A DNA stretch of 64,000 nt from Polyangiaceae bacterium (GTDB lineage: Bacteria; Myxococcota_A; Polyangia; Polyangiales; Polyangiaceae). A program made the translations under genes and the position numbers. The notes below the pieces were generated by a model that saw nothing but the letters and a program-made list of their open reading frames with translations, did no database searches and was not told the origin of the DNA. The stretch's first letter is position 1, and every line of letters starts with the position of its first letter. Positions 20,136 through 44,360 of the stretch are shown here, one piece after another. The stretch lies in contig JAICTZ010000005.1 of NCBI GenBank assembly GCA_025936115.1, positions 124,001-188,000 on the forward strand, written 5' to 3'.

Positions 20136-20608
20136 CTCGGCCGCTCGCGCTCGCTCGCTTTCGCGAGCTCGTCGCCGCGTACGGCGCACGGCTCGAGCTC
20201 TGGCCGCAGGACGAAGTGAACGCGGCACGTGAGCTCTTGGCCGTTTCGGCAGAAGCCCGCGCGCTGCTCGAGCAAGAGGCGGCGTTCGATCGCGAGCTCG
20301 CCGTCGTCAATCAGCCGCCCGAGGTGCCGGCGGCGCTGCTCCGCCGTTTGAACGAGGTGCCGCTCAGAGCTCCGCAGCGGCGCGTGTGGTGGCCGTTCGG
20401 ACGTGCGTGGGTGCCGGCGGTTGGCTGGGCTTTCGCCGCGGCAGTCGGTGTGAGCTGGGGCCTGCTCGCGACACCGTTCGAGACCACCGAAGGCGAGACG
20501 GCGCCCGCCGTCGCAGCGCTCGACTCGTCCGCAGCAGCACCGGCGGCGCCGGCCGACGACGATTTCAGCGCGCTCGCCCGCGGGACGCTCGCCGAATTCG
20601 AGGAATGA
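20132..20608 (+). CDS. Putative anti-sigma factor, single-pass membrane protein
   Basis: A 158-residue protein: a cytoplasmic N-terminal ~85 residues, one transmembrane helix (VPAVGWAFAAAVGVSWGLLA) and a short Ala-rich exported tail. It begins at GTG 20132, overlapping the sigma stop (GTGTCGTGA), which is the standard sigma/anti-sigma layout. No ZAS zinc motif (HxxxCxxC) is visible, so it would be a non-zinc type. The role is inferred from position and topology. Confidence 0.72.
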   Translation: MTRPLALARFRELVAAYGARLELWPQDEVNAARELLAVSAEARALLEQEAAFDRELAVVNQPPEVPAALLRRLNEVPLRAPQRRVWWPFGRAWVPAVGWAFAAAVGVSWGLLATPFETTEGETAPAVAALDSSAAAPAAPADDDFSALARGTLAEFEE

Positions 20609-21075
20609 TCATGACTCCGCTCTCCAAACATCTGCTGCTCGCGCTCGCGATTTCGGGCGCGCTGAACCTCCTCTGCGCCGGGCTCTTCGTCGGCAGCGCG
20701 ATTCATCGCTCGCGAATGCGCGCCGAACGGGCGCAGTTCGAGCCGGGGCCGCGCGGCGGGCGTTTCGAGCGACGCGGAGGCGAAGGCCGGCGCGGCGCCG
20801 CGCCGTTCGGCGGCATTTTGGCCGCTCACCGGGACGAGCTCGTTCAGCGGCGGCGCGCCGTCGTGGACGCGCGCCGCGCCGTCGAACGCACGCTCGAGCA
20901 GGAGCCGTTCGACGCCGCAGCGCTCGACCGTTCGCTCACGAACCTGCGCAACGAAACCACGACCTCGCAGGAGCTCGTACACAAAACGCTCGCGCAAGCG
21001 GCCCGCGACGGCGACGCCCAAACCCGGCGCAAGATCGCTGCCGGCTTCGCCAAGCTCGGCCCGAGCGGTCCCTGA
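20605..21075 (+). CDS. Periplasmic Spy/ZraP-like (metal-resistance type) protein
   Basis: A 156-residue protein with an N-terminal membrane segment (LLLALAISGALNLLCAGLFV) and an Arg-rich helical exported region (HRDELVQRRRAVVDARRAVE; FDAAALDRSLTNLRNET) like the heavy-metal-resistance (CpxP/Spy/ZraP) helical hairpin group. ATG 20605 overlaps the anti-sigma stop (ATGA), and ATG 20611 is an alternative. It is likely the periplasmic stress sensor of this sigma operon, feeding back on the anti-sigma factor. Confidence 0.75.
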   Translation: MIMTPLSKHLLLALAISGALNLLCAGLFVGSAIHRSRMRAERAQFEPGPRGGRFERRGGEGRRGAAPFGGILAAHRDELVQRRRAVVDARRAVERTLEQEPFDAAALDRSLTNLRNETTTSQELVHKTLAQAARDGDAQTRRKIAAGFAKLGPSGP

Positions 21076-29623: not shown

Positions 29624-30670
29624 TTGTCGCATGCTGGCGACGAGGATAAAAAGCTGACTCTGAAGGCTCACTTACGACTGCTGGAGGCGCCGCTCGTGGT
29701 GGGATGGCTCGCCTTGCCGCGCCTCGCCTGGGCCGCTGAGGCCACGGAGCCGATCCGCATCGAGTATCGCGCCGAAGCGGGCTGCCCGAGCGCGGACGAG
29801 TTCAACGGCCAGGTTTTTCGACGTACGGCGAGCGCCCGCCTCGCGACGAACGCGGAGTTCGCGCGCACCTTCGTCGTGAGCATCGAGCGGCGTGGCAACG
29901 GCCTCGTGGGCAGCCTCGTCGTGCGCCAGGCGGACGGCACGACCGAATCCCGGCAAGTCGCAGGCCCCGAATGCGGCGAAGTCGCCAAGGTGCTCGCGCT
30001 CGCCACGGCGCTCGCGATCGATCCGGACGCCTCCCTCGCGCCGAATCCGGAGCCGGCTCCGGCGCCTCCCGAACCGCCCAAGGCAGAACCGGAGCCGGCC
30101 GAAGCCAGGCCTGCGCCGAGTGAGCCGAATCACGACCCGAGCGCGAACGCGTGGGTCGTGACGCTCGGTGCCGCGATCGAAGGCGCGATCACCCCGCGCC
30201 CCGCCTACGGCGGCTCGGTCGGCGCCGGCTGGCGCGCGCCGCACGGGCTCGGCGCGCTTTCCGCCGCTGGCGTCGACCTCACGTACCTGCGCGCGCCGAC
30301 CGACGCCGTCGGCACTGCGGCCGCTTCGTTCCAATTCCTGTACGCGCGACCCGAGCTCTGCGCCGTGGCGCTCAAGTGGCATCTCGAGTCCGGCGTGGCT
30401 CCCTGTCTGAGCGCGGAAATCGGCGCCGTGACGGGCGCGGGCTCGAACATCACGCATGCTTCGACGCGCAGTCGGGCGTGGGCGACGGTCGATCCCACGC
30501 TCGCGCTGCATCAAGCGCTCGGCGCGGGATTCTTCGTCGAGGCAGCGCTCGGCGCCGTGCTGCCCATCACGCGTTACCAATACGTGTTCCGCGACCCGAC
30601 CACGCACGTGTACACCGTGCCGGGCGTCGCCGTGTTCGGCGCCGTGCGCTTCGGTGTCCGGCTGTTTTGA
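29624..30670 (+). CDS. Periplasmic-domain / Pro-rich linker / beta-barrel-like envelope protein
   Basis: About 348 residues. A hydrophobic leader (APLVVGWLALPRLAWAAEA) precedes a ~95-residue soluble domain with two Cys (AEAGCPSADEFNG; AGPECGEVAKVLALATALAI). A ~45-residue Pro/Glu/Ala linker follows, then ~180 residues of alternating, Gly- and aromatic-containing strands that look like an outer-membrane beta-barrel ending in Phe (FGVRLF). The start is uncertain: TTG 29624 has no ribosome site, while GTG 29696 has GGAGG eight bases upstream but gives a short leader. The same layout recurs at 42455-43405. No function is known. Confidence 0.7.
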   Translation: MSHAGDEDKKLTLKAHLRLLEAPLVVGWLALPRLAWAAEATEPIRIEYRAEAGCPSADEFNGQVFRRTASARLATNAEFARTFVVSIERRGNGLVGSLVVRQADGTTESRQVAGPECGEVAKVLALATALAIDPDASLAPNPEPAPAPPEPPKAEPEPAEARPAPSEPNHDPSANAWVVTLGAAIEGAITPRPAYGGSVGAGWRAPHGLGALSAAGVDLTYLRAPTDAVGTAAASFQFLYARPELCAVALKWHLESGVAPCLSAEIGAVTGAGSNITHASTRSRAWATVDPTLALHQALGAGFFVEAALGAVLPITRYQYVFRDPTTHVYTVPGVAVFGAVRFGVRLF

Positions 30671-30699
30671 GCGGTGGCGCTCGACGACTGACGGTCGCG

Positions 30700-31674
30700 T
30701 TACGGCGATCGCACGCCGAGCTCGTGGCGCACACCTTCGGGCAGGTTCGTATAGCGTGACGTCGCGCAGCGGGGCGGCATCGCGAAGCGGCTCTGCGGCG
30801 CGGCTGGCAAGACGGTGCCGTCGTTCGCCGTCGGTATGCCGAAGATGGCGGAGGCTGGCTCGGGATCGGCGCACGTTACGACGGGGACGTCGGTCGCGGC
30901 ATTGTCGATGCGCGTCGTTTGCATGACGCTCAGTGTCTGCAGCTGACCCCAGCTCGCGGGGATCAGCATGCGACCGAGGAAGGATTCGACACCGGTCGTC
31001 TTGTCGGTCATCCAGGCGCCGTACCAGACGTCGCCCGCATCGGTGCTGCCGTCGGGTCCGAGCTTCAAGTGGTAGACGTGACACGCGGTCCACTCGAACT
31101 TGCCGTGAATCGTCATCCAATCGATCCCGTACTGCGTCACCAGCGCCTTGCGCCCGTTCTTGCCCGTGAAGTCGCCGAGCTCGGCGTCCGTCGGTGGCCC
31201 GGAGATCCAGAACACCGCCATTTTCGTAAAGTCGACGGGGCCCGGGGTTGCGGGATCCGTGTACCCGCCGTGCGCTTGTAAGCCGAAAAAGCCCGTGCTC
31301 CCGCTGTTGACGAACGAGAACTGGTGCACCCAGTAGTACCCGTCGTTGGGCGGATCCGTCTCCATCACGAGATCCCACTCGAGGGAGTCGACGGGCGAAG
31401 GCCAGGTCCAATTCGTGTAGACGTTGGTCGTCCCGATCTGCGTGCCGGCCGTGGCGAGCGGCACGGGCGTCCCCGTCTCGCCGCACGCCGGAGACGGAAC
31501 CGGCGGCGGCGGCGGTGGCGTCGTCGACGTGGCGCTCGGCATGCCCGAGCTCGTCGGTGCGCTCGACGGCGCCGTCTGTCCCCACGAACCGAGCGGGAAA
31601 TCGTCTTGGCACGCGAGCGCGAAGAGCGCGCTGCCGACGATGAAAGCCCGCGCTCGGTTACGGCGCGTGAACAC
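30700..31674 (-). CDS. Lipoprotein with DUF3472-like domain
   Basis: A 324-residue lipoprotein with lipobox ALAC (Cys about 22). A Ser/Thr/Pro-rich linker of ~40 residues is followed by a beta-sandwich region resembling DUF3472 (NVYTNWTWPSPVDSLEWDLV; NDGYYWVHQFSFVNSGSTGF; KMAVFWISGPPTDAELGDF). DUF3472 is often found with carbohydrate-related proteins. GTG 31674 lies inside the end of the upstream TPR-tail gene (17-base overlap), so it is co-translated with the sigma/TPR pair and is probably its output or sensor. Confidence 0.75.
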   Translation of the reverse strand: MFTRRNRARAFIVGSALFALACQDDFPLGSWGQTAPSSAPTSSGMPSATSTTPPPPPPVPSPACGETGTPVPLATAGTQIGTTNVYTNWTWPSPVDSLEWDLVMETDPPNDGYYWVHQFSFVNSGSTGFFGLQAHGGYTDPATPGPVDFTKMAVFWISGPPTDAELGDFTGKNGRKALVTQYGIDWMTIHGKFEWTACHVYHLKLGPDGSTDAGDVWYGAWMTDKTTGVESFLGRMLIPASWGQLQTLSVMQTTRIDNAATDVPVVTCADPEPASAIFGIPTANDGTVLPAAPQSRFAMPPRCATSRYTNLPEGVRHELGVRSP

Positions 31675-32377
31675 TTGCCGAACCCTCGCCGATCAACGAG
31701 CGCACCCGCTGCGCGTACGGTCCGTTCGGATGGTTCTGCAAGAAGTCGCGACCGATGCGGGCGGCAGTTTCGCGCTCGCCGCGCCCGGCGAGCGACTCGA
31801 CCCGCAGGACCGTCGCTTCACTGCGGAGCTGCGGCTTGGGAAAGCGCCGCGCGTAATCGTCGAGTGAGCGCAGCGCCTGGCCGTAATCGTGCGCGAGGAA
31901 GGCGGCGCGCGCTTGCTCGATCGCCGTGAGCTCGGCCGTGAGAGACGTGTCCGACGTGGTCGCGTTGTGGGGCGCGGGTTTCAGGGGCAGCGGGGCCGTT
32001 GCGGGAGCCGGTGCGGGCTCGGCCGCGTTCACGGCGGTGGGCTCGGCTGGCTTGGGCGGTATGATGGCCTGCACCGGTGCCGCGACCTTTGCCGCCGGCG
32101 GAAGCGGCAAAGCGGCCGGCTTGCTGCTGACGGCGTGCACGCTAGCCCAAATTGCTACCGCGCCGACCGTGCCGGCGCCGAGCGTCGTGAGCCAGCCCTT
32201 GGCAGCAGCGCGCACGCCGGTGGCCATCGTGCTCGCCGTGAGGAGCCCGCCGATGCCCACGCCCGCGAGGATCTGCTTCCGGCTATGCGCCGACACGGCG
32301 TCGGCGCGCCCGGCCCGAAGCAATTCCGCTTCGAACTCGTCGGCTCCGCCGTCGAGCAGTCTCACTGGATCACTCAT
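31658..32377 (-). CDS. Single-pass membrane protein with TPR-like tail, sigma-factor partner
   Basis: A 239-residue protein: ~60 cytoplasmic residues, a transmembrane segment (TTLGAGTVGAVAIWASVHAV), a Pro/Ala linker, and a C-terminal ~90-residue helical region with TPR/BamD-like pattern (IEQARAAFLAHDYGQALRSL; RRFPKPQLRSEATVLRVESL). Its ATG overlaps the sigma stop (ATGA at 32374-32377). Position and topology suggest an anti-sigma or sigma-signalling role. The tail resembles that of the FecR protein at 40603-41712. Confidence 0.75.
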   Translation of the reverse strand: MSDPVRLLDGGADEFEAELLRAGRADAVSAHSRKQILAGVGIGGLLTASTMATGVRAAAKGWLTTLGAGTVGAVAIWASVHAVSSKPAALPLPPAAKVAAPVQAIIPPKPAEPTAVNAAEPAPAPATAPLPLKPAPHNATTSDTSLTAELTAIEQARAAFLAHDYGQALRSLDDYARRFPKPQLRSEATVLRVESLAGRGERETAARIGRDFLQNHPNGPYAQRVRSLIGEGSASVHAP

Positions 32378-32988
32378 GGGCCCGGTCTTCTCTTGGTACT
32401 TATGCCCGCACCGACCAACTTTGCTTGCTCGTGGAAAACTTCTCGAGCGCGCCTGAGCCGGGTGGCCACTGTACCCCGAGGTAGGAGGAGGAGGCTCGCT
32501 GTCTGGTCGATCGAGAGCTCTTCCAACTCGAACAGCACGAAAACGGCTCGAAGATCCTCAGGCATGGCGTCGAGCACCCGGTCGAGCAGGGCGCGCGCCT
32601 CGAGCCGTTGCGTGAGCTCTTCCGGGTTGGGCGTCGCTTCATGGGGATTGACGGACAGGCGTAACTCTGCTGCCTCACGCCGGTGATACGAGCGCCTGAC
32701 GTGTGAGGCCACGCGCGTGGCGACGCCCACGAGAAATGAGCGTTCGCTGCCCGGATTGATGCGCGAAAGCTTGTCGTTCGCGATCAGAAACACCTGTTGC
32801 GTCGCATCATCGACATCGGCGGCCGGGACCCCGAAGCGGCGTAGCGAACGCCACACGAAATCGAGGTGCTCCGTCACGAGGCTCTTCAGCGCGAGCGGCT
32901 GCGACGGCGCGGCTAGCGTCTCACTCGGTACGGCGCCGTCGCCGGACTCTGTCTCAGCGGGCGAGCCCGCGCTCGACGTGACGCTCAT
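32374..32988 (-). CDS. Sigma-70 family (ECF-like) RNA polymerase sigma factor
   Basis: A 204-residue sigma factor with region 2 (VTEHLDFVWRSLRRFGVPAA, DVDDATQQVFLIA) and region 4 (MPEDLRAVFVLFELEELSID, RGTVATRLRRARE). It heads the operon running down to 30700. An acidic, Ser/Ala-rich N-terminal extension of ~30 residues precedes region 2. Confidence 0.92.
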   Translation of the reverse strand: MSVTSSAGSPAETESGDGAVPSETLAAPSQPLALKSLVTEHLDFVWRSLRRFGVPAADVDDATQQVFLIANDKLSRINPGSERSFLVGVATRVASHVRRSYHRREAAELRLSVNPHEATPNPEELTQRLEARALLDRVLDAMPEDLRAVFVLFELEELSIDQTASLLLLPRGTVATRLRRAREVFHEQAKLVGAGISTKRRPGP

Positions 32989-33290
32989 GGGCCGTGACAG
33001 GGGAACAGAACTAGTAGTCTACGGTCGATAGGCAGCGCTCGCCACCGTCCTCGCGCGTCGAATCCAAAATGGTGTAGCGCTAAAAAATTCGGCGCGCGGT
33101 TCGCAGTGACGCAATTCGGCAGCGCGCCCCGGCAGTCTCACTCGGAGCGAACTCGCGCGTCGCATCGTGCACCAAGCCCAATTCCACTCGCTCCGTAGCT
33201 TTTCGCCGGAGCACGATTCGATGGAGAAAATGCACACCCCTCGCGCGCCGCACGCCTGATTTCGACGTTCGCAAAACACTCTCAGTTTCG
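32989..33290. other. 302-bp divergent intergenic region
   Basis: It separates the sigma gene (minus) from the cytochrome-like lipoprotein gene (plus), so it should hold promoters for both. No box pair is convincing, and no gene or repeat is seen. Confidence 0.45.
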
Positions 33291-34226
33291 ATGGCACGTG
33301 TACGGCTGCGCTCCGTAACCTTCCTCTTATTGGCTGCGCCTGGTGCCTTGGCTCTCGCGTGCGGCCCCGACGCTACACTGCCGCCCGGCGACGATTTCGG
33401 ATCCGGTGCGACGGGCGGTTCCGGCGCTGCAGCGGGCACGTCAGGTAGCGCGCACGCGGGTATGTCGAGCTTCGCCACGGGCGGTAGCGGCGGTACGAAC
33501 TCGGGCGCTCAAGGGGTGGGGACGGGCGGTACTGGAATGGTCGGTACGGGCGGCACCACGGCGCTCGGCGGCAGCACATCCACCGGCGGCTCCTCTGCAG
33601 TGGGCGGCGGCGCCGGCAAGGGTGCAAGTGGTAACGCCGGCACGAGCGGTAGCGGCGGTACGTTCGGTAGTAGCAGCACGTTCGGCAGCGGCGGCACGTT
33701 CGGTAGTAGCGGCACATTCGGCGGCGGCGGCAAAGTGGGCAGCGGCGGTATGCCGAGCGGCGGCAGTAGCGCCGTGTTCGGCGGCGGCGGTCGCGGCGGC
33801 AGCATGAGTTTCGGCGGTCGGAGTAGCGGCGCGGGTAGCTCCGCCGGCGGCCGTGTGAGCGCCTCGGGCGCCGGCGGGAGCAGCGCCGGCGGCGCGGGCA
33901 GCAGCGTTGCGTTCAGCCAGGTTGCCGCGATTATCCAAACCAATTGCGGAGCGTCCAACTGTCACGGCGGGCGACAAGGCCCGACGCTCACCAGCTCCAA
34001 TCTCACGACGCTTTACAACACGCTGACGAGCACCACCGTGCGCCAGTGCGGGAGCGATCACCTCGTCACGAAGAACGACACCGCCAACAGCGCGCTGCTC
34101 GAGCTGCCGCAGGGTACGTGCAGCAACTTCATCATGCCGCAGGGTTGCACCAAGACACCGTGCCTGGCGGCGGCCGACATCACGACGATCACGAATTGGA
34201 TCAACGCGGGCGCGCCGGGACCCTAG
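33291..34226 (+). CDS. Linker lipoprotein with C-terminal cytochrome c-like domain
   Basis: A 311-residue lipoprotein. Lipobox LALAC (Cys about 24) is followed by ~180 residues of Gly/Ser/Thr, including an 18-bp DNA repeat coding for TFGSSG-type units near 33658-33725. The last ~100 residues resemble the planctomycete-type cytochrome c module. QTNCGASNCHGG supplies a CX4CH heme-type motif, then a Met in NFIMPQGC and the closing TTITNWINAGA. Extra Cys pairs are present. The four-residue Cys spacing is not the usual CXXCH, so heme attachment is not certain. Confidence 0.82.
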   Translation: MARVRLRSVTFLLLAAPGALALACGPDATLPPGDDFGSGATGGSGAAAGTSGSAHAGMSSFATGGSGGTNSGAQGVGTGGTGMVGTGGTTALGGSTSTGGSSAVGGGAGKGASGNAGTSGSGGTFGSSSTFGSGGTFGSSGTFGGGGKVGSGGMPSGGSSAVFGGGGRGGSMSFGGRSSGAGSSAGGRVSASGAGGSSAGGAGSSVAFSQVAAIIQTNCGASNCHGGRQGPTLTSSNLTTLYNTLTSTTVRQCGSDHLVTKNDTANSALLELPQGTCSNFIMPQGCTKTPCLAAADITTITNWINAGAPGP

Positions 34227-34265
34227 ACGAGCTCTCGTCAGCCCCGTGCGCGCCGTCCATCGCGC

Positions 34266-35519
34266 TCAGTTCTTCTGGAAGACGCGCACGTAATCGACTT
34301 CGAAGCGCTGCGGAAACGTCGTCGCGTCGAGGCTGCCGCCGTTCGAGCCGCCGAGGGCGAGGTTCACGAGCATGTACGCCTTCTGTTTGAAGGGGCTCGA
34401 GCCGTCCGGGTTCAGCATGCTCGAGAGCGCCGTCGTGTTCAGCGTCTGCTCGTCCAGAAAGAGCGTGATGTTCTGATCGTCCCAATCCATGCGCCAGACA
34501 TGGAAGTCCGAGGACCAGCTCGCGCCGAGCGACGACAAAGACTTCGAGGCCGAGTCCCACTTCGCCTGCCAGCGCGTGCTCGTGCCGCACGCGACGTTCG
34601 CGCGCACCTGGCCGCCGTAATATTCCATGATGTCGATTTCGCCGTTCGACGGCCACTCCCCGCTCACGCCGAGGGTCCACCAGGCGGGCCACATGCCCGA
34701 CACCGTCGGGATGCGCGCGCGAAGCTCGAAGCGGCCGTACTGCCAGCTCTGTAGTCCGCTCGTGTTGATGCTCGACGACGTGTATTCGGCATCCTGTCGG
34801 CTCGTTTTCCAGTCGCCGCTGCCGGTGTAGTTCGGATTTTCGACGCGCTCCTTCCGCGCTTCGATCACGAGCAGGCCGTCCGCCACGCTCGCGTTGGCGG
34901 TCTGGTACCACTGGTCCTCCTCGTTGCGTACGAAGCCGGTCTCGAATTTCCAGTTCTTGGGATTGGGGGGACCGTCGACGTCGAACTCATCGTGCCAGAC
35001 GAGCGTGTATCCGGCAGGGACGACGATGTCGCCTGCACCGGCGCTGCCCCCGGAGCTCGTGCCGCCGGCTCCGCTCGAGCCGTTCGCGCCGCCGGTGCCG
35101 CCCCTGCCGCCGACGCCGCTCCTGCCACTCGCGTTCGCCGTGCCACCGCTCGTGCTGCCGCGCCCGCCGCGTCCGTCACGCGCGCCGCCGGCTCCGCTCG
35201 CTGCGGTTCGTGTACCCGCGCCGCCGCCCGAGCCGCTGGCGTTCGGTTGACCGCCGCGTCCACTCGCAGCGCTCGGTTCACCCCCTGCGCTCGTTCCGCT
35301 GCTCGAGCTTGCGCCGCCCGCGTTCGCTCCGCCCAGGGCGGTCGCGCCCGCTGCGTCCAAGGCTCCCGCGCTCGCGCCGCTCGCGTGCATGCTGGTGCCG
35401 CCCGCGCCGTGCGGTGTTGCGTCGCTCATGGAGCCGCACCCTGCGAGCACCGCCGTGCTTGCAACGGCTGCCCGCAAGCCGTGTGTCGCGAAGAAACGTT
35501 CGGTGATCGTGCGGGTCAA
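34266..35519 (-). CDS. Surface lipoprotein with GH16 endo-beta-glucanase domain
   Basis: A 417-residue protein. A signal with lipobox LAGC (Cys about 28) is followed by ~130 residues of Gly/Ser/Ala linker, then a GH16 catalytic domain of ~250 residues starting VVPAGYTLVWHDEFD. The catalytic motif NGEIDIMEYYG carries the nucleophile and acid/base Glu residues (ExDxxE). QWYQTANASVADGLLVIEAR and SGMWPAWWTLG are further family landmarks. It is probably a laminarinase or related beta-1,3-glucanase held on the cell surface. The start is TTG 35519. Confidence 0.93.
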   Translation of the reverse strand: MTRTITERFFATHGLRAAVASTAVLAGCGSMSDATPHGAGGTSMHASGASAGALDAAGATALGGANAGGASSSSGTSAGGEPSAASGRGGQPNASGSGGGAGTRTAASGAGGARDGRGGRGSTSGGTANASGRSGVGGRGGTGGANGSSGAGGTSSGGSAGAGDIVVPAGYTLVWHDEFDVDGPPNPKNWKFETGFVRNEEDQWYQTANASVADGLLVIEARKERVENPNYTGSGDWKTSRQDAEYTSSSINTSGLQSWQYGRFELRARIPTVSGMWPAWWTLGVSGEWPSNGEIDIMEYYGGQVRANVACGTSTRWQAKWDSASKSLSSLGASWSSDFHVWRMDWDDQNITLFLDEQTLNTTALSSMLNPDGSSPFKQKAYMLVNLALGGSNGGSLDATTFPQRFEVDYVRVFQKN

Positions 35520-35729
35520 CGCTCTCTATTCTTCCTCGCTCGTTGCCAGTCGTTGGCGCGTCTTTGCGACGAGCGGCCGAATTCTACCACTCTCTAGCGT
35601 GCCGGCGACCCGGCCGACGCACCCGCTTTCCCGGCTTCACCCGCGCCGCTGCTCGCTCGGACGCCTGTGGGAAGCTCGAAATCACGATTAACGCGCCTCA
35701 CGCTCTTGCGCCCGCGTGCGCGCGAACCC

Positions 35730-36407
35730 ATGGCTATCGGTATGGCGCTAGCGCTCGTGACGGGAGCCAATCGGGGAATAGGACTCGCGCTCGTCGAGCT
35801 CTTGCGGCAGCGCGAGCTCGACGTGATCGGCGTGTGCCGTCAGAGCTCGCCCGAGCTCGCGCGCCTCGGCGCTGAGGTGTTGGACGCGGTCGACGTAACC
35901 GACGAACGCGGGATCGAGCGTGTCGTGCGGGCGGTCGGCGGCCGGGAGATCCAGCTGCTCGTCAACAACGCCGGCATCATGCGCTTTCCCGAGACGCTCG
36001 ATCAAATCGATCCCGTCTCCATCCGCCTGCAGTTCGAAGTCAACGCCCTCGCTCCGCTACGGATCACGGCAGCGCTGCGCGGGCGACTCGCGCGCGGCTC
36101 CAAGGTCGGCCTCGTCACGAGTCGCATGGGCTCGATCGACGACAACGGCTCGGGCGGAGCCTACGGCTACCGCATGAGCAAGGCGGCCCTCAACATGGCG
36201 GGCAAGTCTCTGGCGGTCGATCTCAAGCCGGCAGGCGTCGCGGTGGCCATCCTGCACCCCGGGATGGTGCGCACACGCATGACCGGCTCGCACGGTCAGC
36301 TCGAACCACTCGACGCGGCCCGCGGACTGCTCGCGCGCCTCGACGAGCTCACGCTCGAAACCACCGGCGGCTTCTGGCACGCCAACGGACAAAGGTTGCC
36401 CTGGTAA
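35730..36407 (+). CDS. Short-chain dehydrogenase/reductase
   Basis: A 225-residue classical SDR with the cofactor motif TGANRGIG, NNAG, the catalytic Ser in VTSRMGS, and YRMSK. The acidic residue after strand 2 is replaced by CRQSS, which hints at NADP preference, an inference. The C-terminal GFWHANGQRLPW is typical of the csgA/sniffer-like subgroup. ATG 35730 or 35742 may be the start. The stop overlaps the next ATG by one base (TAATG). Confidence 0.92.
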   Translation: MAIGMALALVTGANRGIGLALVELLRQRELDVIGVCRQSSPELARLGAEVLDAVDVTDERGIERVVRAVGGREIQLLVNNAGIMRFPETLDQIDPVSIRLQFEVNALAPLRITAALRGRLARGSKVGLVTSRMGSIDDNGSGGAYGYRMSKAALNMAGKSLAVDLKPAGVAVAILHPGMVRTRMTGSHGQLEPLDAARGLLARLDELTLETTGGFWHANGQRLPW

Positions 36408-36772
36408 TGACCGCACAACGCCTCGTTCGCGTCCCAGTGCTCGTTGCCGCGCTTTTTCTGGCCTCGACTTGCCAGCGTACGAACGACGGCGGCGCTGCCG
36501 TTCCGCACCTCGACAACCATCCGCCTGCGGAGACCTCCGACGGCCGCACCGTGGGTGCCGACGACAAATCACCCCAGCATCTTCTCGCCGAGCAGGGCAC
36601 GTCGTCTCATCCCGCCCCCGGTTGGAAGATCGGGCCGAACGGCGTCTCCTACGATCCTAAGCGCTCCCCTGACGAAGCGAAGGGCGCGACGAAGATCGTG
36701 CTGCCGGACGCGGGCACGGAGACCGTGCCGCCCGCAGCAACTCCCGTCGTCGCGCCGGCGCCGGAAAAGTAA
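36407..36772 (+). CDS. Small lipoprotein, unknown function
   Basis: A 121-residue lipoprotein with lipobox ASTC (Cys about 22) and a disordered Pro/Ala/Asp-rich mature part (PAPGWKIGPNGVSYDPKRSP; PDAGTETVPPAATPVVAPAP). No domain is seen. It is translationally coupled to the SDR gene (TAATG). Confidence 0.68.
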   Translation: MTAQRLVRVPVLVAALFLASTCQRTNDGGAAVPHLDNHPPAETSDGRTVGADDKSPQHLLAEQGTSSHPAPGWKIGPNGVSYDPKRSPDEAKGATKIVLPDAGTETVPPAATPVVAPAPEK

Positions 36773-36872
36773 GCCGTTCGAACGTCCAGCAACGGTTCGA
36801 AGCAACGCGCGAGCCCGAGGCGCGCCAGGGGCCGACCCCTAGCCGCGCGTTGCTTCGGGTGAGGGAAGCGCA

Positions 36873-36971
36873 CTACTTCGCGCTGCCCTTCTCCTTCTTT
36901 TTCTGCTTCTTCTGCTTGACCGTGAGCTTCGGCTGGTTGTTCGTCTTCGGACGCTGCTGACCTTTGGCCAT
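36873..36971 (-). CDS. Very small, highly basic protein (32 aa)
   Basis: The frame begins MAKGQQRPKTNNQPKLTVKQ and ends with a Lys-rich tail, about 40% Lys plus Arg. AAGGGAG lies nine bases before the ATG, one of the best ribosome sites in the window. Short MAKGQ-type proteins with a Lys-rich tail are known to me from other bacteria, with no assigned role. The charge suggests nucleic acid or ribosome binding, an inference. It is divergent from the permease gene. Confidence 0.65.
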   Translation of the reverse strand: MAKGQQRPKTNNQPKLTVKQKKQKKKEKGSAK

Positions 36972-36975
36972 TCGG

Positions 36976-38265
36976 ATGCTCCCTTCTGAAACGACGCGTC
37001 ACCATAGCATGCGACGCGCGCTTTCGATGTTCGATGCGCTGTGTCTCGGCGTGAATGCGGTGGTCGGCAGTGGTGTGTATTTGTTTCCCGGGACGCTGGC
37101 GCAAAAGCTCGGTCCGGCGTCGCTCGTCGCTTGGCTGCTCACGGGGATTTTATGCTTGCCGCTCGCGCTCACGTTCGCAGCGCTCGGCACGATGGAGGAC
37201 CGAACGGGCGGCTCGTTCCGCTACGCGGAGCTCGCCTTCGGTAAAGGAATTGCGTTCGTCGTCGGATGGTCCGCCTGGGTCACCTCCGTGATCTCCTGGG
37301 CTGCGGTCGCGAACGCGCTCCCGAGTTACCTCGAGCCGTTTGCGCCTGCACTCGCGCGTGAGCCGTACGGCCGAATCGTACCGAGCGTGCTGGTGCTCGG
37401 ACTGGCGGGCTTGAACGTCCGGGGCGTCAAACCGAGCGCGCGCCTGCTGGATGCGTTCACCGCGCTCAAGCTCGTGCCGCTGGTCTTCTTCGTGCTGGTC
37501 GGGCTGTCGGCCGTCCGCGCGGCCGAATTTCGGCCGTTCGTGCCGCACGGGCTTACGGCGCTGCCCGCGATGGCGCTGATGACCGTGTTCGCTTACCAGG
37601 GCTTCGAGGTGGTGGGTGTGCCCGGTGGCGAGATGCGCGAGGCGCGCCGCGTCGTGCCGCGCGCCGTGCTCTGGTCGCTATTTTTCCCCGCCCTTCTGTA
37701 CCTTCTCGTTCAACTCGTGTTCCTGGGAGTAGGTGGGCGGCCGACGCGCGCTCCGCTCGTCGACGCGGCGCGTACATTCGCCGGAGGCTCGGGCGCGACG
37801 CTGCTGGCGCTCGGTGGCGTGGTCTCGATGCTTGGCTTCAACGCCGGCACGGCCTTGTGCACGCCGCGCTATCTCCAAGCCCTCGCCGACGAAGGGCTGC
37901 TGCCGCGCGTGCTTGCGAAGGTCCATTCCCGCTACGCCACGCCGGCCGTCGCCATCGTGGCGAGCGGCGTCGTGACCGCCGTGATTGCCGAGCTCTTCGA
38001 CTTCGAGCACCTGGTGGATCTAGCGGCACTCGCCGTACTCGCGCAGTACCTCGCGAGTTCGGCGGCCCTCGTGCGTCTCGGCAGCGGCCGGCTACGGCTA
38101 CTCGGCGCGGTCTCTGTGCTCGTGAGCCTGTCGTTCGGCGCTCAAGGCGAGCTCGCGCCGATCGCGATTCTCGGCGGACTCACGCTCGCGGGCGTCGTGC
38201 TCGCCGTCGGGACGCGCTTCTTTGCCGGCCGCGCTCGTGCGCGCGGCCTCAACCCGGATCGCTGA
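36976..38265 (+). CDS. APC-family amino acid permease
   Basis: A 429-residue inner-membrane transporter with about 11-12 helices. The family's helix 1 motif VNAVVGSGVYLFPGTLAQKL and helix 6 AYQGFEVVGVPGGEMREARR are present, as is NAGTALCTPRYLQALADEG. The substrate is an amino acid or polyamine by family, not resolved here. ATG 37009 is an alternative start closer to helix 1. The 3' end overlaps the convergent GH45 gene by 17 bases. Confidence 0.92.
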   Translation: MLPSETTRHHSMRRALSMFDALCLGVNAVVGSGVYLFPGTLAQKLGPASLVAWLLTGILCLPLALTFAALGTMEDRTGGSFRYAELAFGKGIAFVVGWSAWVTSVISWAAVANALPSYLEPFAPALAREPYGRIVPSVLVLGLAGLNVRGVKPSARLLDAFTALKLVPLVFFVLVGLSAVRAAEFRPFVPHGLTALPAMALMTVFAYQGFEVVGVPGGEMREARRVVPRAVLWSLFFPALLYLLVQLVFLGVGGRPTRAPLVDAARTFAGGSGATLLALGGVVSMLGFNAGTALCTPRYLQALADEGLLPRVLAKVHSRYATPAVAIVASGVVTAVIAELFDFEHLVDLAALAVLAQYLASSAALVRLGSGRLRLLGAVSVLVSLSFGAQGELAPIAILGGLTLAGVVLAVGTRFFAGRARARGLNPDR

Positions 38266-39517
38266 GCCCGGACTTGTTCGTGATGTCGGAGGGGCACGCG
38301 ATCTGTTTGAAGGTGAAGTTCGGGTTGTCCGCCGCGCCGAACCACCCGAGGAACCAATTGCAGCCGTCGAGCAGATCCTGCTTGCCGTTGAACACGGTCT
38401 GACACTTCTGCTTCACGCAGTTGACGTCGCCGTTGCAGCCCGCGAGAAATCCGCCGTATTGCGCGCCCAGATCCGCGGTGCCCCACTGCGTGTTGCACGC
38501 GTTGAGGGCGCCGACGCCGCCGCCCGGAATCAAGAGGTCGAACTGATCGGCTGCGACGCCGCCGTTGTTGATGACCTGCACGATCATGTGCTTGCCGTTG
38601 AGCGCCTGCGTGCTCGTGCCCGAGCCGTTGTGAGAGCTGCCGCTGAACTGCAGGTGGTAACAGCGCCCGCAGACGTAGTTGCCGCCGGAAGCCGCGGCGA
38701 AGCCGTACGAGAGCTTGTCGCCCACGGACCAGGGCGAGTCCTGCCAGCACATGAAAGCGGTGCCGCCGCCTTCACACGCGTTCTTCGCGTTGTTGTCGCT
38801 CAGCGTCTGATTGGACTGGCTGCACGACTTGATCGGGTTGCGACCACCCGTGTTGCCCGTCCATCCGCAGGCCGGCTTGCAACAATCCCAATAACGCGAG
38901 GCCCAACCGTTCGAGCCGCCGGAAATGTCCGGAGGTGGAGCGAGGTTGCCGCCCGCGCCGGAACCGCCGCTGCCGCTCGTGCCGCTCGTGCCGCCCGTAC
39001 CGCTCACGCCGCCACTGCCACCCGAGCTTCGGCCCGCCGCGCCGCCCGAGCTCCGGCCCGCGCTGCCGCCGCGACCGCCGCCCGGCGCGAAGCTGCCCGC
39101 GCTGCCGCCCGCGCCCGAACTCGCCCCGGTGCCTGCGGCGCCGCCCACGCCGACGGTCCCACCCGTGCTCGATAGACCCGCGGTATTCATGCCTGCGGTA
39201 CCGGTTCCGCCCATGGCCGCAGAGCCGCCCGTCGCGCCCGTGCCGCCGCCGCTCGAGCCGCCGCTGCTCGCGCCGCTGCCGCCCGTGCCGACTTGGCCGC
39301 CCGCGTGCGCGCCAGCGCCTCCGCTCGTCGTGCCACCGTGACTCTGGCCCGCGCCGCTCGTCGTCTTGCCTGCCGACGCGCCGTCGCCGGGCGCGAGCGT
39401 CGGTTCGCCGCTGGCGCACGACGCGGCGCTGGCCATGAGCGCGAACGATCCGAAGAAGACGGCGCCGAAGGAGCGCCCTGCACGTTGAGCCAAAGTCATC
39501 ATCTCTTGGGGTATCAT
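38249..39517 (-). CDS. Surface lipoprotein with GH45 endoglucanase domain
   Basis: A 422-residue protein with lipobox SAASC (Cys about 34), a ~165-residue Gly/Ser/Thr linker and a C-terminal GH45 cellulase domain. GH45 landmarks are ASRYWDCCKPACGW with the catalytic Asp, ACEGGGTAFMCWQDSPWSVG, and DQFDLLIPGGGVG with the second catalytic Asp, followed by GWFGAADNPNFTFKQIACP. An auxiliary Asp known from fungal enzymes (in GGD) reads GGV here. Many Cys suggest disulfides. GH45 is mainly fungal and animal, so transfer is possible. ATG 39502 is an alternative start. Confidence 0.93.
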   Translation of the reverse strand: MIPQEMMTLAQRAGRSFGAVFFGSFALMASAASCASGEPTLAPGDGASAGKTTSGAGQSHGGTTSGGAGAHAGGQVGTGGSGASSGGSSGGGTGATGGSAAMGGTGTAGMNTAGLSSTGGTVGVGGAAGTGASSGAGGSAGSFAPGGGRGGSAGRSSGGAAGRSSGGSGGVSGTGGTSGTSGSGGSGAGGNLAPPPDISGGSNGWASRYWDCCKPACGWTGNTGGRNPIKSCSQSNQTLSDNNAKNACEGGGTAFMCWQDSPWSVGDKLSYGFAAASGGNYVCGRCYHLQFSGSSHNGSGTSTQALNGKHMIVQVINNGGVAADQFDLLIPGGGVGALNACNTQWGTADLGAQYGGFLAGCNGDVNCVKQKCQTVFNGKQDLLDGCNWFLGWFGAADNPNFTFKQIACPSDITNKSGLSDPG

Positions 39518-39748
39518 CTGGTTTCGACGTCGGCCAGTCTTGATTCGGACGCACTTTTGCGATCAGAGCTCGGGGCATCCGTCGATCGCAGAGAATTTCA
39601 GCTCGGAGACAAGTTCGAGCGCGCGCCTGCCTCGCTTCGGCCGCGAGCGGTGACTAACACGGGAGCGGCTACTGGCGCGATGCACGCCCGAGCTCGCGAG
39701 TTTTAGCGGCTTTTCGCGCCGACGGGCCGAGGGCAGGCGCAATCACTT

Positions 39749-40594
39749 TCAGCGGTCGTACTCGCCGCCGACGCACGTGTGACTTGCCGGATCACAGACG
39801 AGCGGCGCGCCGCAATCGCGAGAATCTTTGCACACGACGCAGGTGAACGTGAGGGGATCGCAGACGCGCCCGAGCGCGCTGCAGTCGCCGTCGACGGCGC
39901 ACTCGGCGCAGCGCGCACCGGCCGCACAATGCGGGCCGCGCGGGTTCGAGCTGCAGTCGGCGTCGGCGAGACACTCGACGCAAACGCTGCGCCGGGTGTT
40001 GCACATGTGGGTCGAGCGGCTGCAGTCGTGATCGGGATCGAGCTCCGTCGCGCAGCTCTGCAAGCACGAATGGCTCCAGCCGTCACACACGCTGCCTGCA
40101 GGGCAACCGTCACTGGGGGTGCACGGCGTGCAGCGATGCTGGCTGATGTCGCAGTAGGGATTCGCAGCCGGACAGTCGAGATCTTGGCGACACTCGACGC
40201 AACTTACGTCGGTGTCATCCGAGCAGAAAAGGCCGTACATCTCGCAGACTTCGCAGTCCGCCTCCCCGGCGGCCCCGCTCGCGCCGCTCATGCCGCCGAC
40301 ACTCGTGGAGCCGGCGCTGGACGTGCCACCTGGGCTCGACGGGGCACCCGCGCTCGACGTGCCACCCGAGCTTGCTGCCGCGCCCGAGCTCGCTGCCGCG
40401 CCTGCGCTCGCTGCTGCACCTGTGCTCGCTGCCGCGCCTGCACTCGACGTGACGCCGGCGATCCCGCCGCCCGGTCCATCGGGCGGCGCGCCCGAGCTTC
40501 CCCCGCCGTTCGCGGGAGTGCCTCGATCGAAGCGAAACTCTCCGTTGCAGGCGAACGCGAGCAAGAGCAGCGCCGCGAGCTTTCGGCTATGCAT
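39749..40594 (-). CDS. Cys-rich repeat lipoprotein
   Basis: A 281-residue lipoprotein with lipobox AFAC (Cys about 16), an Ala/Gly/Ser linker that includes GAAAS-type repeats, and ~170 residues of Cys-rich modules (SCVECRQDLDCPAANPYCD; VCVECLADADCSSNPRGPHC; VCKDSRDCGAPLVCDPASHT). Each module has about six Cys in the spacing common to myxobacterial secreted proteins. It starts eight bases after the FecR-like stop, making it the third gene of the sigma operon from 42373. Confidence 0.82.
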   Translation of the reverse strand: MHSRKLAALLLLAFACNGEFRFDRGTPANGGGSSGAPPDGPGGGIAGVTSSAGAAASTGAAASAGAAASSGAAASSGGTSSAGAPSSPGGTSSAGSTSVGGMSGASGAAGEADCEVCEMYGLFCSDDTDVSCVECRQDLDCPAANPYCDISQHRCTPCTPSDGCPAGSVCDGWSHSCLQSCATELDPDHDCSRSTHMCNTRRSVCVECLADADCSSNPRGPHCAAGARCAECAVDGDCSALGRVCDPLTFTCVVCKDSRDCGAPLVCDPASHTCVGGEYDR

Positions 40595-40602
40595 CGTCGA
40601 GC

Positions 40603-41712
40603 TCACGGCGAGCGCGCGAGCGTCTGCATTTCCCCGCGAGCGAAGCCTGCCGGGTAGCGTGCGAGGTAACGCTCCGCCTCGGCGCGTGCGCTCGGGGTGT
40701 CGCTGCGCGAGAGCAGCCGGACGCGCTCGACGAACGCGCTTTCGGCGAGCTGACCGCGCGGAAAACGAGCCAGCAAACGCCCGTACGTCGCGAGCGCCTC
40801 TCCGCTGCGGCCCGCGCGTCGTGCGGCTTCGGCTGCGGCATAGAGGTCGTTTTGCTCCGAGAGCGATGACGTGGCGGCGCTGCTCTCCTCTGCCGTGCTC
40901 GCCGCGGGCGCGACCGACGGCTTCGTCGCGGGCGCCGCGACCGGATTCGACGATGCGCGACGCTCCCCGTTTGCCGCGAGTCGCTCCGTTGCGCGCGGAC
41001 GCAGCGGAGCGCGCGCTTCCGTCACTGCCGGGGCCAGGGGGGCTTCTGCCGGAGGCGTACACAGGCTCGTCCACTGCTCACCGCCGACCAGCATCAGGAC
41101 CTTGCCACCGGAGCGCACTTCGACGCGTCCTTCCTCCACGGCGACGTGCGAGCGCTCGGCGCAGTCGCTCGTGGCAGGTTCGAGCTTCACGTCGAACACG
41201 GTGCCGCGCACTTCCACCTCGGCCTGGGGCGTGTCGACCAAGAAGCGCTCGTTCGGGCGCAGCTTCGCGACGTGCAGGTGCGCGCCGCCGCGCAAAAGCG
41301 CAAAACGTTGCGTCGTCGTCGCGTCGCGGCACTCGAGCACGCTCTTGGCGTCGAGCGCGATCTGGGTGCCGCTCGCGAGCACGACGGAGGTGGGCGCGCC
41401 CGCGGGCGCGACGATGCTCTGCCCCGCGTCGAGCCCGCGATGCCGATCGCCCGCAGCCGTGCAGTTCGCGCCGCGGCAGGCGTTCGCGCGGGGATTTCGC
41501 GGAGCGACTGTGAAGAAGACGGCGAGCGCCGCCACGGAGGCAAACCCCACGCCGGCGGCCACGAGGCGCGCGCTCCGCCGTTTACGCCGCATCGCCATGC
41601 CCTGCGCGACGACGCTGATGCCGACGTCGCGGCTCAGTCGCGATTCCTTCGCCAGCGGTCGCTCCCGCAGCAACCACGCCGCGAGCGCCGCGTAGCGCGT
41701 GGGCTCAGTCAT
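40603..41712 (-). CDS. FecR-domain membrane protein with TPR-like tail
   Basis: A 369-residue protein. A cytoplasmic N-terminus is followed by a transmembrane helix (LVAAGVGFASVAALAVFFTV), a FecR domain (GTQIALDAKSVLECRD; FLVDTPQAEVEVRGTVFDVK), an Ala/Pro-rich linker and a C-terminal TPR-like tail (YAAAEAARRAGRSGEALATY; ARFPRGQLAESAFVERVRLL). FecR proteins pass envelope signals to sigma factors. The start at 41712 overlaps the end of the sigma gene by 8 bases, which supports pairing. Confidence 0.9.
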   Translation of the reverse strand: MTEPTRYAALAAWLLRERPLAKESRLSRDVGISVVAQGMAMRRKRRSARLVAAGVGFASVAALAVFFTVAPRNPRANACRGANCTAAGDRHRGLDAGQSIVAPAGAPTSVVLASGTQIALDAKSVLECRDATTTQRFALLRGGAHLHVAKLRPNERFLVDTPQAEVEVRGTVFDVKLEPATSDCAERSHVAVEEGRVEVRSGGKVLMLVGGEQWTSLCTPPAEAPLAPAVTEARAPLRPRATERLAANGERRASSNPVAAPATKPSVAPAASTAEESSAATSSLSEQNDLYAAAEAARRAGRSGEALATYGRLLARFPRGQLAESAFVERVRLLSRSDTPSARAEAERYLARYPAGFARGEMQTLARSP

Positions 41713-42373
41713 GGAGCTCCCGGTGCGAGCGGGCGAGATCATCCATCGAGCCGGCGAGATCCGGATCGCGGAGGATCCGCTCGTGCATCTCTTTGCGCCC
41801 GCGCACGAGCCGGCTCTGCACGGCGGCGACGCTCACCTTGGTGATGTCGCTGATCTCCTTCAGCGAGAAGCCGTGCACGTCGTGGAGCACGAACGTCCAG
41901 GCGCGGTTCGCGTCCATGTCCGTCAGGTGCTTCTGGACGCGACGGATCGAGTTACGCAAGAGGGCGGTGCCGCTCGCCGCTCGATCCGCCCGGTCGAAGG
42001 TCTCGGAGTCGGTGAGCGCGAAGAGTCGCCGTTCGATCTTGCGCCGGCGGATGTGCTTGTAGGCGGTGCGAGCCGCGATGACGGCGGCCCAAGCGTCGAG
42101 CGGGCACTCGCCGCGGAAACGTTCGAGGCTGAGCACGAGATCGATCAAGGCCTGCTGAACGAGGTCGTCGTGGTCGGGATCGCGCGCGCCGAGCAGGCGG
42201 CCGAGCGTGCGCTCGATCACCGGCCGCAACCGGTCGTGGAAATTTGCTGCGGCAGCGGCCTCACCAGCGATGACCGCCGCGAGCAGCGCCCCGTCCGCTT
42301 CCGCCGCCGGCAGCTGGCTGGCCGGGGAATTGCCTTTGACGAGACGAAGCGGGCGCAGGGGTGCTGGAGACAT
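41705..42373 (-). CDS. Sigma-70 family RNA polymerase sigma factor
   Basis: A 222-residue sigma factor with region 2 (RPVIERTLGRLLGARDPDHD, DLVQQALIDLVLSLERFRGE) and region 4 (VLHDVHGFSLKEISDITKVS, AAVQSRLVRGRKEM). ATG 42373 is preferred over 42406. It forms an operon with the FecR-TPR gene and the Cys-rich lipoprotein. Confidence 0.9.
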   Translation of the reverse strand: MSPAPLRPLRLVKGNSPASQLPAAEADGALLAAVIAGEAAAAANFHDRLRPVIERTLGRLLGARDPDHDDLVQQALIDLVLSLERFRGECPLDAWAAVIAARTAYKHIRRRKIERRLFALTDSETFDRADRAASGTALLRNSIRRVQKHLTDMDANRAWTFVLHDVHGFSLKEISDITKVSVAAVQSRLVRGRKEMHERILRDPDLAGSMDDLARSHRELHD

Positions 42374-42454
42374 GGGGGCCCTGATCGGAAGTGCCTCGAT
42401 CCGCATATTAGCAGGCGCAGGCCTCGGCGGACGCGAGACCGTTCCAACTTGCGC

Positions 42455-43405
42455 CTAGAAGGACGCCCGCAGGCCGAGCCGCGCGAGCGGATTGACGGGA
42501 GGCCAGGTCGCGCGCGCCTCCTCGTGCACGTAAATGGTCGTCTTGCCGGCCAGAACTTCAGCTCCGAGCTCGACGAATAAGCTCGACGTTTCGTTGAAAT
42601 CCACTCCCGCCGTCCCGCACAACGTTCCACCCAACAAGAATCGCTCTTGACGGTCCGGCTCCGGATCGTCGGACGAAAAATGGCTCACCGACAGTTGGTA
42701 CAACCCGACACCGAGACTCACGCCGAGCCAAGTTGCCTCCGTCGGGCGAAAGGCGCGCCAGCTCGTGCGCGCAACGAGCGAGCCGATACGTGACGAAGCC
42801 TGCGCCTCGGCGAGCTCACCGAAACGAAGCTCGCCCGCCAAGCCGATCCGAAAGCGCGCGGTGAGCGCAACGTCGCCAGCGAGGCTCGCACCGAGCGTCG
42901 TGCCCTCGCCTGGCCCCGAAGCTGCGACCGCTGCGCTGATCTCCCCCTGTGGAAAGGTGCGCGTGAGTTTGGCGGGAGTCGCCGCGATCGGCAGCGGCGC
43001 GCTCGTCGGGGGCGGCGGAGCCGTCGTGCTCGGCGCAGGGGCGGGTGCGGGCGCGGCGGGCGTGGTTTCGAGGAAGACGGCCGCCGCGAGAAAGCCGAGT
43101 GTGCGGCCGCGCTCGGCGTCGGGATCGGTCGCCTCGAAGCTCACCCAGCGCTCGAGACAGTCGTCGCGCGCTCGGCAAAGTCTCAGGCGCGCGTGCTCGT
43201 GACGCGGCGAGTCCCACGACAGCACGGCGCTCTCGCTGCCGCGTTCCGGCGGCGGCACGGCTTCGGGCTGGTCGTCGAGGAACGACTCGGTGCGCACGCT
43301 CACGTCGGGTCCGAGCATTTCGCTCGCGGCTTGTGCCATGGCACCCGTACTCGGTGCGGCGACTTGGCTCGTCGCCACCCAGATCGTCAAAGCCGCCGCG
43401 GTCAC
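42455..43405 (-). CDS. Periplasmic-domain / Pro-rich linker / beta-barrel-like envelope protein
   Basis: A 316-residue protein: a signal peptide ending AMA, a ~95-residue soluble domain with two Cys (ARLRLCRARDDCLERWVSFE) closing with a hydrophobic helix, a ~35-residue Pro/Ala/Thr linker, and ~180 residues of probable beta-barrel strands ending in Phe (ARLGLRASF). The plan matches the 29624-30670 protein, though overall similarity is low by eye. It lies upstream of, and on the same strand as, the sigma operon at 42373, 82 bases away. Confidence 0.72.
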   Translation of the reverse strand: MTAAALTIWVATSQVAAPSTGAMAQAASEMLGPDVSVRTESFLDDQPEAVPPPERGSESAVLSWDSPRHEHARLRLCRARDDCLERWVSFEATDPDAERGRTLGFLAAAVFLETTPAAPAPAPAPSTTAPPPPTSAPLPIAATPAKLTRTFPQGEISAAVAASGPGEGTTLGASLAGDVALTARFRIGLAGELRFGELAEAQASSRIGSLVARTSWRAFRPTEATWLGVSLGVGLYQLSVSHFSSDDPEPDRQERFLLGGTLCGTAGVDFNETSSLFVELGAEVLAGKTTIYVHEEARATWPPVNPLARLGLRASF

Positions 43406-43466: not shown

Positions 43467-44360
43467 TCAGTACGGCTTCTGGCCGGAAATGTTGCCGCCC
43501 GGTGCGTAGTCGCAGAGCACGGTGTTGTTGAAATGGGCGTTCGGACAATTCACGATCGCGCAACCGATCCGAACGCTGTCGCGCCAAACGACCTGGGTGT
43601 AGTGACCGGCGCTCGAGAAGTCGTTCTTCGCGTAGTCGTACTTGCTCGACTCGCTCATCCAGCTGTTCAGGGCGTCCGCCGGCGCCACGGTGTTGCCGGT
43701 CGTCGCGTAGATATTTTCGCCCACGTAGCTGTCCTTGCCGCCGAGCGCTTGGTAGTCCGTGGAGCGATCCATGTTGTGATCGACGAGCTGTCCGTCGGGC
43801 GCGACGCACTTGCTGAGGTAGTTGTACGCCGAGTCGGCGAGGATCGGGTCCCAGCTCATGGGCGGCAGCGGGGGCACGGGCAGGGGATTCAAGTCGGTGC
43901 GCGCTCGTGCGGCGTTGTGCGCGGCGACGAACGCCTCGATCAAGGTCTTGCTGAGCGGATTGGTATGGCTCGCCACTGCGGAGCCCCCGCTGCCGTTCGG
44001 TGCGCCCGCTCCGCCGCCCGCATCGTCCTGGCCAGCTTGACCCGAGCCGCCACTGCTGCCGGGACGCCCGGCCGCGGCGGAGGAGCCGCCGGTATCGGCA
44101 GAGCCGCCGCTCTCGGCAGAGCCACCGGTCCCGCCCGAGGCCCGCGCGCCGCCGCTCTCGCCCGCGCCGCCGGTCTCTCCGAGCGTGCCGCCCGTTGCTG
44201 CGGAGTTGCTTCCGCCACGTGCGTGATTACCGCCGGCCGCGCCGCCCGTACCGCCCTGCTCTGCGCCGCTCGCGCCGGCCTCGCCTGCATCACCGTTGGC
44301 GCCGCCGCTACTGCAGCCGACGACGGTAAGAAGCGAAACGATCAAAGCATGGCGGAGCAT
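43467..44360 (-). CDS. Surface lipoprotein with CAP/SCP (PR-1) domain
   Basis: A 297-residue lipoprotein with lipobox VVGC (Cys about 16), ~110 residues of Gly/Ser/Ala linker, then a CAP domain of ~150 residues. LIEAFVAAHNAARARTDLNP carries the first conserved His, VGENIYATTG the Glu region, and AGHYTQVVWRDSVRIGCAIV the second His and signature. CAP proteins bind lipids or act on surface partners. Bacterial roles are mostly unknown. Confidence 0.93.
   Translation of the reverse strand: MLRHALIVSLLTVVGCSSGGANGDAGEAGASGAEQGGTGGAAGGNHARGGSNSAATGGTLGETGGAGESGGARASGGTGGSAESGGSADTGGSSAAAGRPGSSGGSGQAGQDDAGGGAGAPNGSGGSAVASHTNPLSKTLIEAFVAAHNAARARTDLNPLPVPPLPPMSWDPILADSAYNYLSKCVAPDGQLVDHNMDRSTDYQALGGKDSYVGENIYATTGNTVAPADALNSWMSESSKYDYAKNDFSSAGHYTQVVWRDSVRIGCAIVNCPNAHFNNTVLCDYAPGGNISGQKPY

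Follow-up and report, generated by a model that had tools for sequence, protein, structure and literature searches.

In cell-surface signalling, the N-terminal domain of a receptor binds the C-terminal periplasmic part of a regulator, and the signal leads to proteolysis of the regulator and release of the sigma factor (PMC9249621, PMC11637429). In systems of the FecI-FecR-FecA (FecIRA) type, including FoxI/FoxR/FoxA and PupI/PupR/PupB, the gene for the extracytoplasmic function (ECF) sigma factor adjoins that for the membrane regulator. Here we describe a gene cassette with this arrangement, two copies of which lie in a 64,000-nucleotide (nt) stretch of DNA from a Polyangiaceae bacterium (assembly GCA_025936115.1, contig JAICTZ010000005.1, positions 124,001 to 188,000; hereafter the window). 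The usual order is a barrel protein gene, an ECF sigma factor gene, a gene for a membrane protein with a tetratricopeptide repeat (TPR) tail and often a lipoprotein gene. We consider it probable that the cassette is a TonB-independent relative of FecIRA signalling. Because its layout is that of cell-surface signalling with each outer module exchanged, we infer a corresponding signalling logic. No published description of the cassette was found in a literature search, the main ECF reclassification (10.1093/nar/gkaa1229) lying outside its reach.

Expansion in one genome and conservation across Myxococcota

The window belongs to an 8.06-Mb assembly from the Myxococcota with 83 Sigma70_r2 matches, and nearly all of its sigma loci were gene-called and profiled. 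A profile of the copy 1 barrel, searched against the whole genome, yielded 19 matches, 18 of them within the sigma loci and the last in a full set of its own. All 19 adjoin a sigma gene, which puts the arrangement well outside what chance would produce. The copy 2 barrel profile gave nine matches, nine of nine beside sigma genes, the profile itself having been built from such loci. The sigma loci contain 32 TPR-tail genes, every one adjoining the sigma gene and mostly overlapping it by 4 nt, with one more set at locus L199. A looser threshold returned 34 sigma-TPR pairs, comprising 24 that lack a FecR domain (class A) and 10 that have one (class B). Overall, the genome holds about 33 ECF sigma genes that are each paired with an overlapping gene for a membrane-TPR protein. 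These sets account for roughly 40% of its approximately 80 ECF sigma factors, and the cassette would therefore explain a large share of the growth in sigma factors in this lineage. At L076 (1409-2950) and L116 (6223-7575), two sigma-TPR pairs adjoin LamB-type porins (Pfam E values of 1e-83 and 6e-89), and no cassette barrel was found next to them.

The initial annotation had read the two window cassettes as a duplication, which does not hold. In a tree of 78 sigma factors from the genome, copy 1 falls within a class A group of 21 rows (19 with TPR partners; support 100/99), most class B members form another group (100/97), and copy 2 pairs with the sigma factor of L077 (100/100) outside both. 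These separate, well-supported lineages rule out local duplication, and copy 2 alone has a FecR domain. The window copies each belong to an expanded family of long standing.

Conservation was examined in 141 sampled Myxococcota genomes at loci picked by the barrel alone, which was present in 23 genomes. At the 30 loci chosen in this way, which include three weak matches and a further locus that ends at a contig edge, a sigma gene lay within 1.5 kb in 22 cases and a TPR gene in 19; wider views added the window locus and G020. When the TPR profile was searched separately, matches were obtained in 36 genomes, including 22 of the 23 barrel genomes (Fisher p 3e-15, uncorrected for kinship). In 22 other genomes, some of which also contributed sequences to the profiles, a TPR match lies within 5 kb of 39 of the 55 barrels. 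The same strand and order are kept in 36 of these, mostly with a gap of 600-700 nt, which is room for one sigma gene. Finally, 40 held-out loci, chosen by TPR match and unused before, yielded 35 called TPR genes; 32 of the 35 follow a sigma gene, and 26 of these have a barrel before it. A single-protein barrel scan of genome contigs gave one match, in a Nannocystis exedens metagenome-assembled genome. The initial annotation had staked its proposal on a conserved neighbourhood in related genomes, and sigma, TPR and barrel genes do co-occur across the phylum, with cassette order kept across distant families.

Co-inheritance of the parts was assessed with 18 class A cassettes. Pairwise distances of sigma factor, TPR protein and barrel correlate (r 0.43-0.48, p 0.0002), and species history cannot confound this correlation because all 18 cassettes come from one genome. 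With sigma distance held fixed, the TPR tail tracks the N-terminal domain of the barrel protein (partial r 0.31, p 0.002) and does not track its barrel part (partial r 0.11, p 0.16). With the tail held fixed, the cytoplasmic N-terminus of the membrane protein tracks the sigma factor (r 0.33, p 0.001). These partial correlations are consistent with one periplasmic and one cytoplasmic contact, without proving either.

Gene organization and predicted structures of the window cassettes

All eight genes of the two window cassettes are present at the positions below, as the initial annotation had described, and both lipoprotein genes encode lipoboxes. A codon-usage gene caller finds all eight independently, placing the start of barrel 1 later.

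Copy 1:
29624-30670 (+), barrel protein: signal peptide, TolB-N-like domain, Pro-rich linker and 8-strand outer-membrane barrel
29741-30037 (+), predicted periplasmic domain of barrel 1 (residues 40-138) with conserved C54 and C117; aligned by VIA to the TolB N-terminal part
30140-30667 (+), predicted 8-strand barrel (residues 173-348 of barrel 1), OmpA/NspA/OmpW-like, Z 15-16
30700-31674 (-), lipoprotein payload, lipobox LFALAC, no Pfam family
31588-31611 (-), mature N-terminal tag CQDDFPLG of payload 1, which fits C-x(5-7)-[LIVM]-G
31658-32377 (-), membrane protein with C-terminal TPR tail, putative anti-sigma factor, no FecR domain
31700-31936 (-), TPR tail (residues ~148-226), matching YfiO, TPR_16 and tol_pal_ybgF models and homologous to the copy 2 tail
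32374-32988 (-), ECF sigma factor of the class A clade (Pfam r2 and r4; tree)

Copy 2:
39749-40594 (-), Cys-rich lipoprotein payload with 29 Cys, lipobox LAFAC, TraA-like Cys repeats (E 2e-7)
40526-40549 (-), mature N-terminus CNGEFRFD of payload 2, a variant tag; CN-x-x-F-x-F-D is also found in relatives at L069 and L149
40603-41742 (-), FecR-domain membrane protein with TPR tail, putative anti-sigma factor (Pfam FecR E 7e-14; AlphaFold2 model)
40612-40866 (-), TPR tail (residues 293-377), resembling BamD (Z 12.2) and YbgF (Z 10.6)
41068-41418 (-), FecR beta-solenoid (residues 109-225), resembling the PupR periplasmic domain (Z 17.4 over 117 residues)
41705-42406 (-), ECF sigma factor of a separate lineage (Pfam r2 and r4; tree)
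42455-43405 (-), barrel protein of the class B type, profile match to the copy 1 family (E 1.1e-9)

The sigma factors are 204 and 233 amino acids (aa) long in copies 1 and 2, respectively, and have r2 and r4 domains only. The sigma gene overlaps the TPR gene by 4 nt in copy 1 and by 8 nt in copy 2, where the TPR gene is reckoned as 40603-41712 (-).

Direct BLASTP comparison between the window copies is weak or nil for the lipoproteins, sigma factors and barrels, and therefore profiles were needed. The TPR tails, whose kinship the initial annotation had proposed for profile comparison, are homologous (BLASTP E 5e-4), and a single profile recovers both. The copy 2 membrane protein additionally carries the FecR domain, which had been overlooked, between its membrane segment and its TPR tail; in the AlphaFold2 model this region is a beta-solenoid and the C-terminus is a five-helix tail of TPR type (predicted local distance difference test, pLDDT, 88-98). 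No FecR domain was found in the copy 1 protein by Pfam scan, and a Pro/Ala-rich linker occupies its place. We predict that the membrane protein sits in the inner membrane with its short N-terminus inside and its TPR tail in the periplasm. The description of these proteins as single-pass suits class B, where a single clear span with positive-inside bias is present in 15 of 16 proteins, and is uncertain for copy 1 because two weak hydrophobic stretches are present.

The two barrel-type proteins both end in Phe, as had been noted. They yield no significant match to each other by BLASTP (E 0.14), and searches of Pfam and NCBIfam assigned neither to a family. Nevertheless, profile-to-profile comparison with hhalign, again a check proposed at the outset, bears out their homology over the barrel part only (96.4% probability, E 1.1e-9). 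A model of barrel 1 (mean pLDDT 85; 33 homologues in the alignment) contains an 8-strand barrel of about 175 residues, too small for a plug, and the predicted strand number and lack of a plug set it apart from TonB-dependent receptors. Its N-terminal alpha/beta domain matches most of the TolB N-terminal part as the top match (98-99 residues, root-mean-square deviation 2.6-2.7), with a Z score of 8.8 that is modest and slightly higher than that of unrelated rows. No STN-domain chain is among the VIA matches listed for this domain, the list being filled by one domain. The two-Cys soluble domain of the initial annotation stands for copy-1-type barrels, in which C54 and C117 are conserved; the copy 2 cysteines are not equivalent. 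Taken together, the models predict a TolB-N-like domain in the periplasm, joined by a flexible linker to an 8-strand barrel of the OmpA kind.

Other genes of the window were also noted. At 33291-34226 (+), next to sigma 1 and on the opposite strand, lies a gene for a lipoprotein-like protein that has long Gly/Ser repeats, a short C-terminal part containing Cys (CHGG) and no Pfam family. Between the cassettes lie glycoside hydrolases of families GH16 (34266-35519, -) and GH45 (38249-39517, -) with Gly/Ser-rich N-terminal stretches, which fit a polymer-degrading lifestyle. A CAP-domain lipoprotein gene (43467-44360, -), immediately upstream of the barrel 2 gene and in its orientation, may belong to the copy 2 set. 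At 19551-21075 (+), a third, unrelated ECF sigma gene precedes two small genes for proteins of 158 and 154 aa, and the nearer of the two overlaps it by 4 nt.

Lipoprotein payloads and a common N-terminal tag

Of 49 class A sets, 17 have a lipoprotein gene right after the TPR gene, compared with 37 of 348 background neighbours (p 4e-5), and several of these lipoprotein genes overlap the TPR gene by 4 nt. The lipoprotein is therefore a frequent but not obligatory member of the cassette. Given this enrichment and the tag described below, the view that the copies carry different payloads is right for the family as a whole. Past mature residue 40, a set of 59 lipoproteins falls into 37 BLAST clusters, the largest having four members. 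Payload 1 has no NCBIfam family either. Recognizable domains elsewhere include GH8 (three loci), an arabinofuranosidase catalytic domain, four Kazal inhibitor domains, RCC1 and PD40 propellers and an ice-binding-like adhesive domain, and several of these (GH8, arabinofuranosidase, Kazal and adhesin-like) act outside cells. The payload with the four Kazal-type protease-inhibitor domains (L138, 2608-3906, -) has 43 Cys. At L119, L124, L127, L128 and L130, the barrel gene is directly preceded on its own strand by a second lipoprotein gene, whose product is Cys-rich except at L130, and thus a set can carry payloads at either end or both.

These mostly unrelated proteins share a short tag at their mature N-termini. 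The pattern C-x(5-7)-[LIVM]-G, with a consensus of roughly C-G-x-[DE]-[VI]-S-L-G-S-[GD], begins 31 of 48 immediately downstream lipoproteins. It was first noticed in a set where 17 of 29 carry it, against 11 of 194 control lipoproteins, a control rate near that expected from composition by a rough estimate. For this reason we relied on held-out loci, in which the fixed pattern occurs in 14 of 19 (p 1e-11 against the same controls). Within the held-out loci alone, the comparison is 14 of 19 with 6 of 16 other lipoproteins (p 0.03), and these 16 may include lipoproteins of the same cassette, for example where the caller missed the TPR gene. Window payload 1 carries the tag; payload 2 and its relatives have CNxxFxFD instead. 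The tag offers a direct handle on the sorting and display of surface lipoproteins in Myxococcota, for which no described signal was found in the literature search.

Proposed signalling and comparison with known systems

From the gene sets, their order, expansion and conservation, the homology of their parts and the tag, we infer the contacts, the signal and the regulation as follows. The N-terminus of the membrane protein would hold the overlapping sigma factor, and the TPR tail of this putative anti-sigma factor would dock on the periplasmic domain of the barrel protein. Barrel and lipoprotein would face outward and the parts would signal together, so that a surface event at the barrel or the tagged lipoprotein alters the TPR-barrel contact and frees the sigma factor, which would then transcribe its own cassette. 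The lipoprotein would be a swappable outer part (enzyme, adhesin or Cys-rich domain) joined to the set by the common tag behind its lipid-bearing cysteine. A further and rather doubtful extension is that the tag serves as a signal for docking or export that the barrel of the same cassette recognizes, each of the dozens of cassettes displaying a different surface lipoprotein and sensing its state. If true, this would constitute a modular display-and-sense platform with which a predatory or polymer-degrading bacterium watches many extracellular targets through one relay design and without TonB.

Several observations weigh against the proposed signalling. The TPR profile gave one extra strong match in the genome (L220/L223) that has no detectable sigma gene and adjoins a gene for a 341-aa exported-looking protein, and one barrel-sigma pair (L110, 3922-5548) occurs without a TPR gene. 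In class A, the membrane protein frequently shows another weakly hydrophobic stretch and lacks a clear positive-inside bias, and the TPR tail could be cytoplasmic in some members. The lower correlation of the barrel part with the tail could reflect its poorer alignment relative to the N-terminal domain. By the strict test, a lipoprotein directly follows the TPR gene in only about one-third of class A cassettes. Lastly, a search upstream of the 19 barrel genes found no shared promoter motif, only one GC-rich 7-mer being clearly above shuffles.

The matches of the TPR tails to BamD and YbgF/CpoB and of the barrel N-domain to TolB raise the alternative that the cassette monitors envelope stress or assembly, with the tail and the TolB-N-like domain sensing barrel assembly or Tol-Pal state rather than an outside ligand. 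We regard this as unlikely, because helical repeats commonly give fold matches of Z 10-12, as the TPR tails do here, and because about 33 copies with different payloads, several of which are secreted-type enzymes, better suit many outside inputs than one housekeeping stress. The barrel might instead be an export or display partner that brings the tagged lipoprotein to the surface or keeps it there, the sigma pair only setting the dose; RcsF, for comparison, is threaded through OmpA. That otherwise unrelated payloads share a tag immediately after their lipid-bearing cysteine, at a position comparable to that of the Bacteroidetes export signal (PMC5080379), is in keeping with this idea. However, many barrel-sigma-TPR sets lack an adjoining lipoprotein and the tail-to-N-domain correlation favours a relay, making this explanation quite improbable. 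That the genes are neighbours merely through block duplication of old sigma operons, with barrel and lipoprotein as ordinary regulated targets that sense nothing, would by itself produce correlated distances among the parts but is very improbable given an order kept across distant families and a tail that tracks the N-domain beyond the sigma factor.

A TonB-independent relative of FecIRA signalling thus remains our preferred reading, and the TPR tail and TolB-N-like domain, available in dozens of matched natural versions, are good material for tests of partner specificity. Other described systems resemble single parts of the cassette. ECF42 also combines an ECF sigma factor with TPR repeats (PMC8103513, PMC8999054), but there the repeats are fused to the cytoplasmic sigma factor, whereas in the cassette they reside on a separate membrane protein. 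ECF220 and ECF276 are groups represented in Sorangium (PMC8999054). The lipoprotein export signal of Bacteroidetes is likewise a short sequence directly behind the lipid-bearing cysteine of differing lipoproteins; it reads K-(D/E)2 or Q-A-(D/E)2 (PMC5080379), whereas the cassette tag is a hydrophobic residue plus Gly, with the Gly 7-9 residues after the Cys. Neither CQDDFPLG nor CNGEFRFD fits C-X-K-(D/E)2-X, and the family consensus lacks K-(D/E)2. As in Tol-Pal (TolB, YbgF/CpoB), a TolB-N-like fold and a YbgF-like TPR are present, the latter in the putative relay, but the TolB-N-like domain forms one protein with an outer-membrane barrel, and that protein gave no beta-propeller match.

The likeness to FecIRA extends further, to the FecR beta-solenoid of copy 2 and class B and to an outer-membrane barrel that is preceded by a periplasmic domain and a flexible linker. 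In contrast, the cassette barrel is predicted to be 8-stranded and unplugged, unlike a TonB-dependent receptor, the best match of its N-domain is to TolB-N where receptors have STN, copy 1 and class A lack the FecR domain, and the putative anti-sigma tail is a TPR where FoxR and PupR carry an STN-like domain (PMC9249621, PMC11637429). By analogy, the cassette would work like FecIRA signalling, although it lacks several of the features that define such systems. It suggests a small barrel without a plug as a possible route for FecIRA-like signalling.

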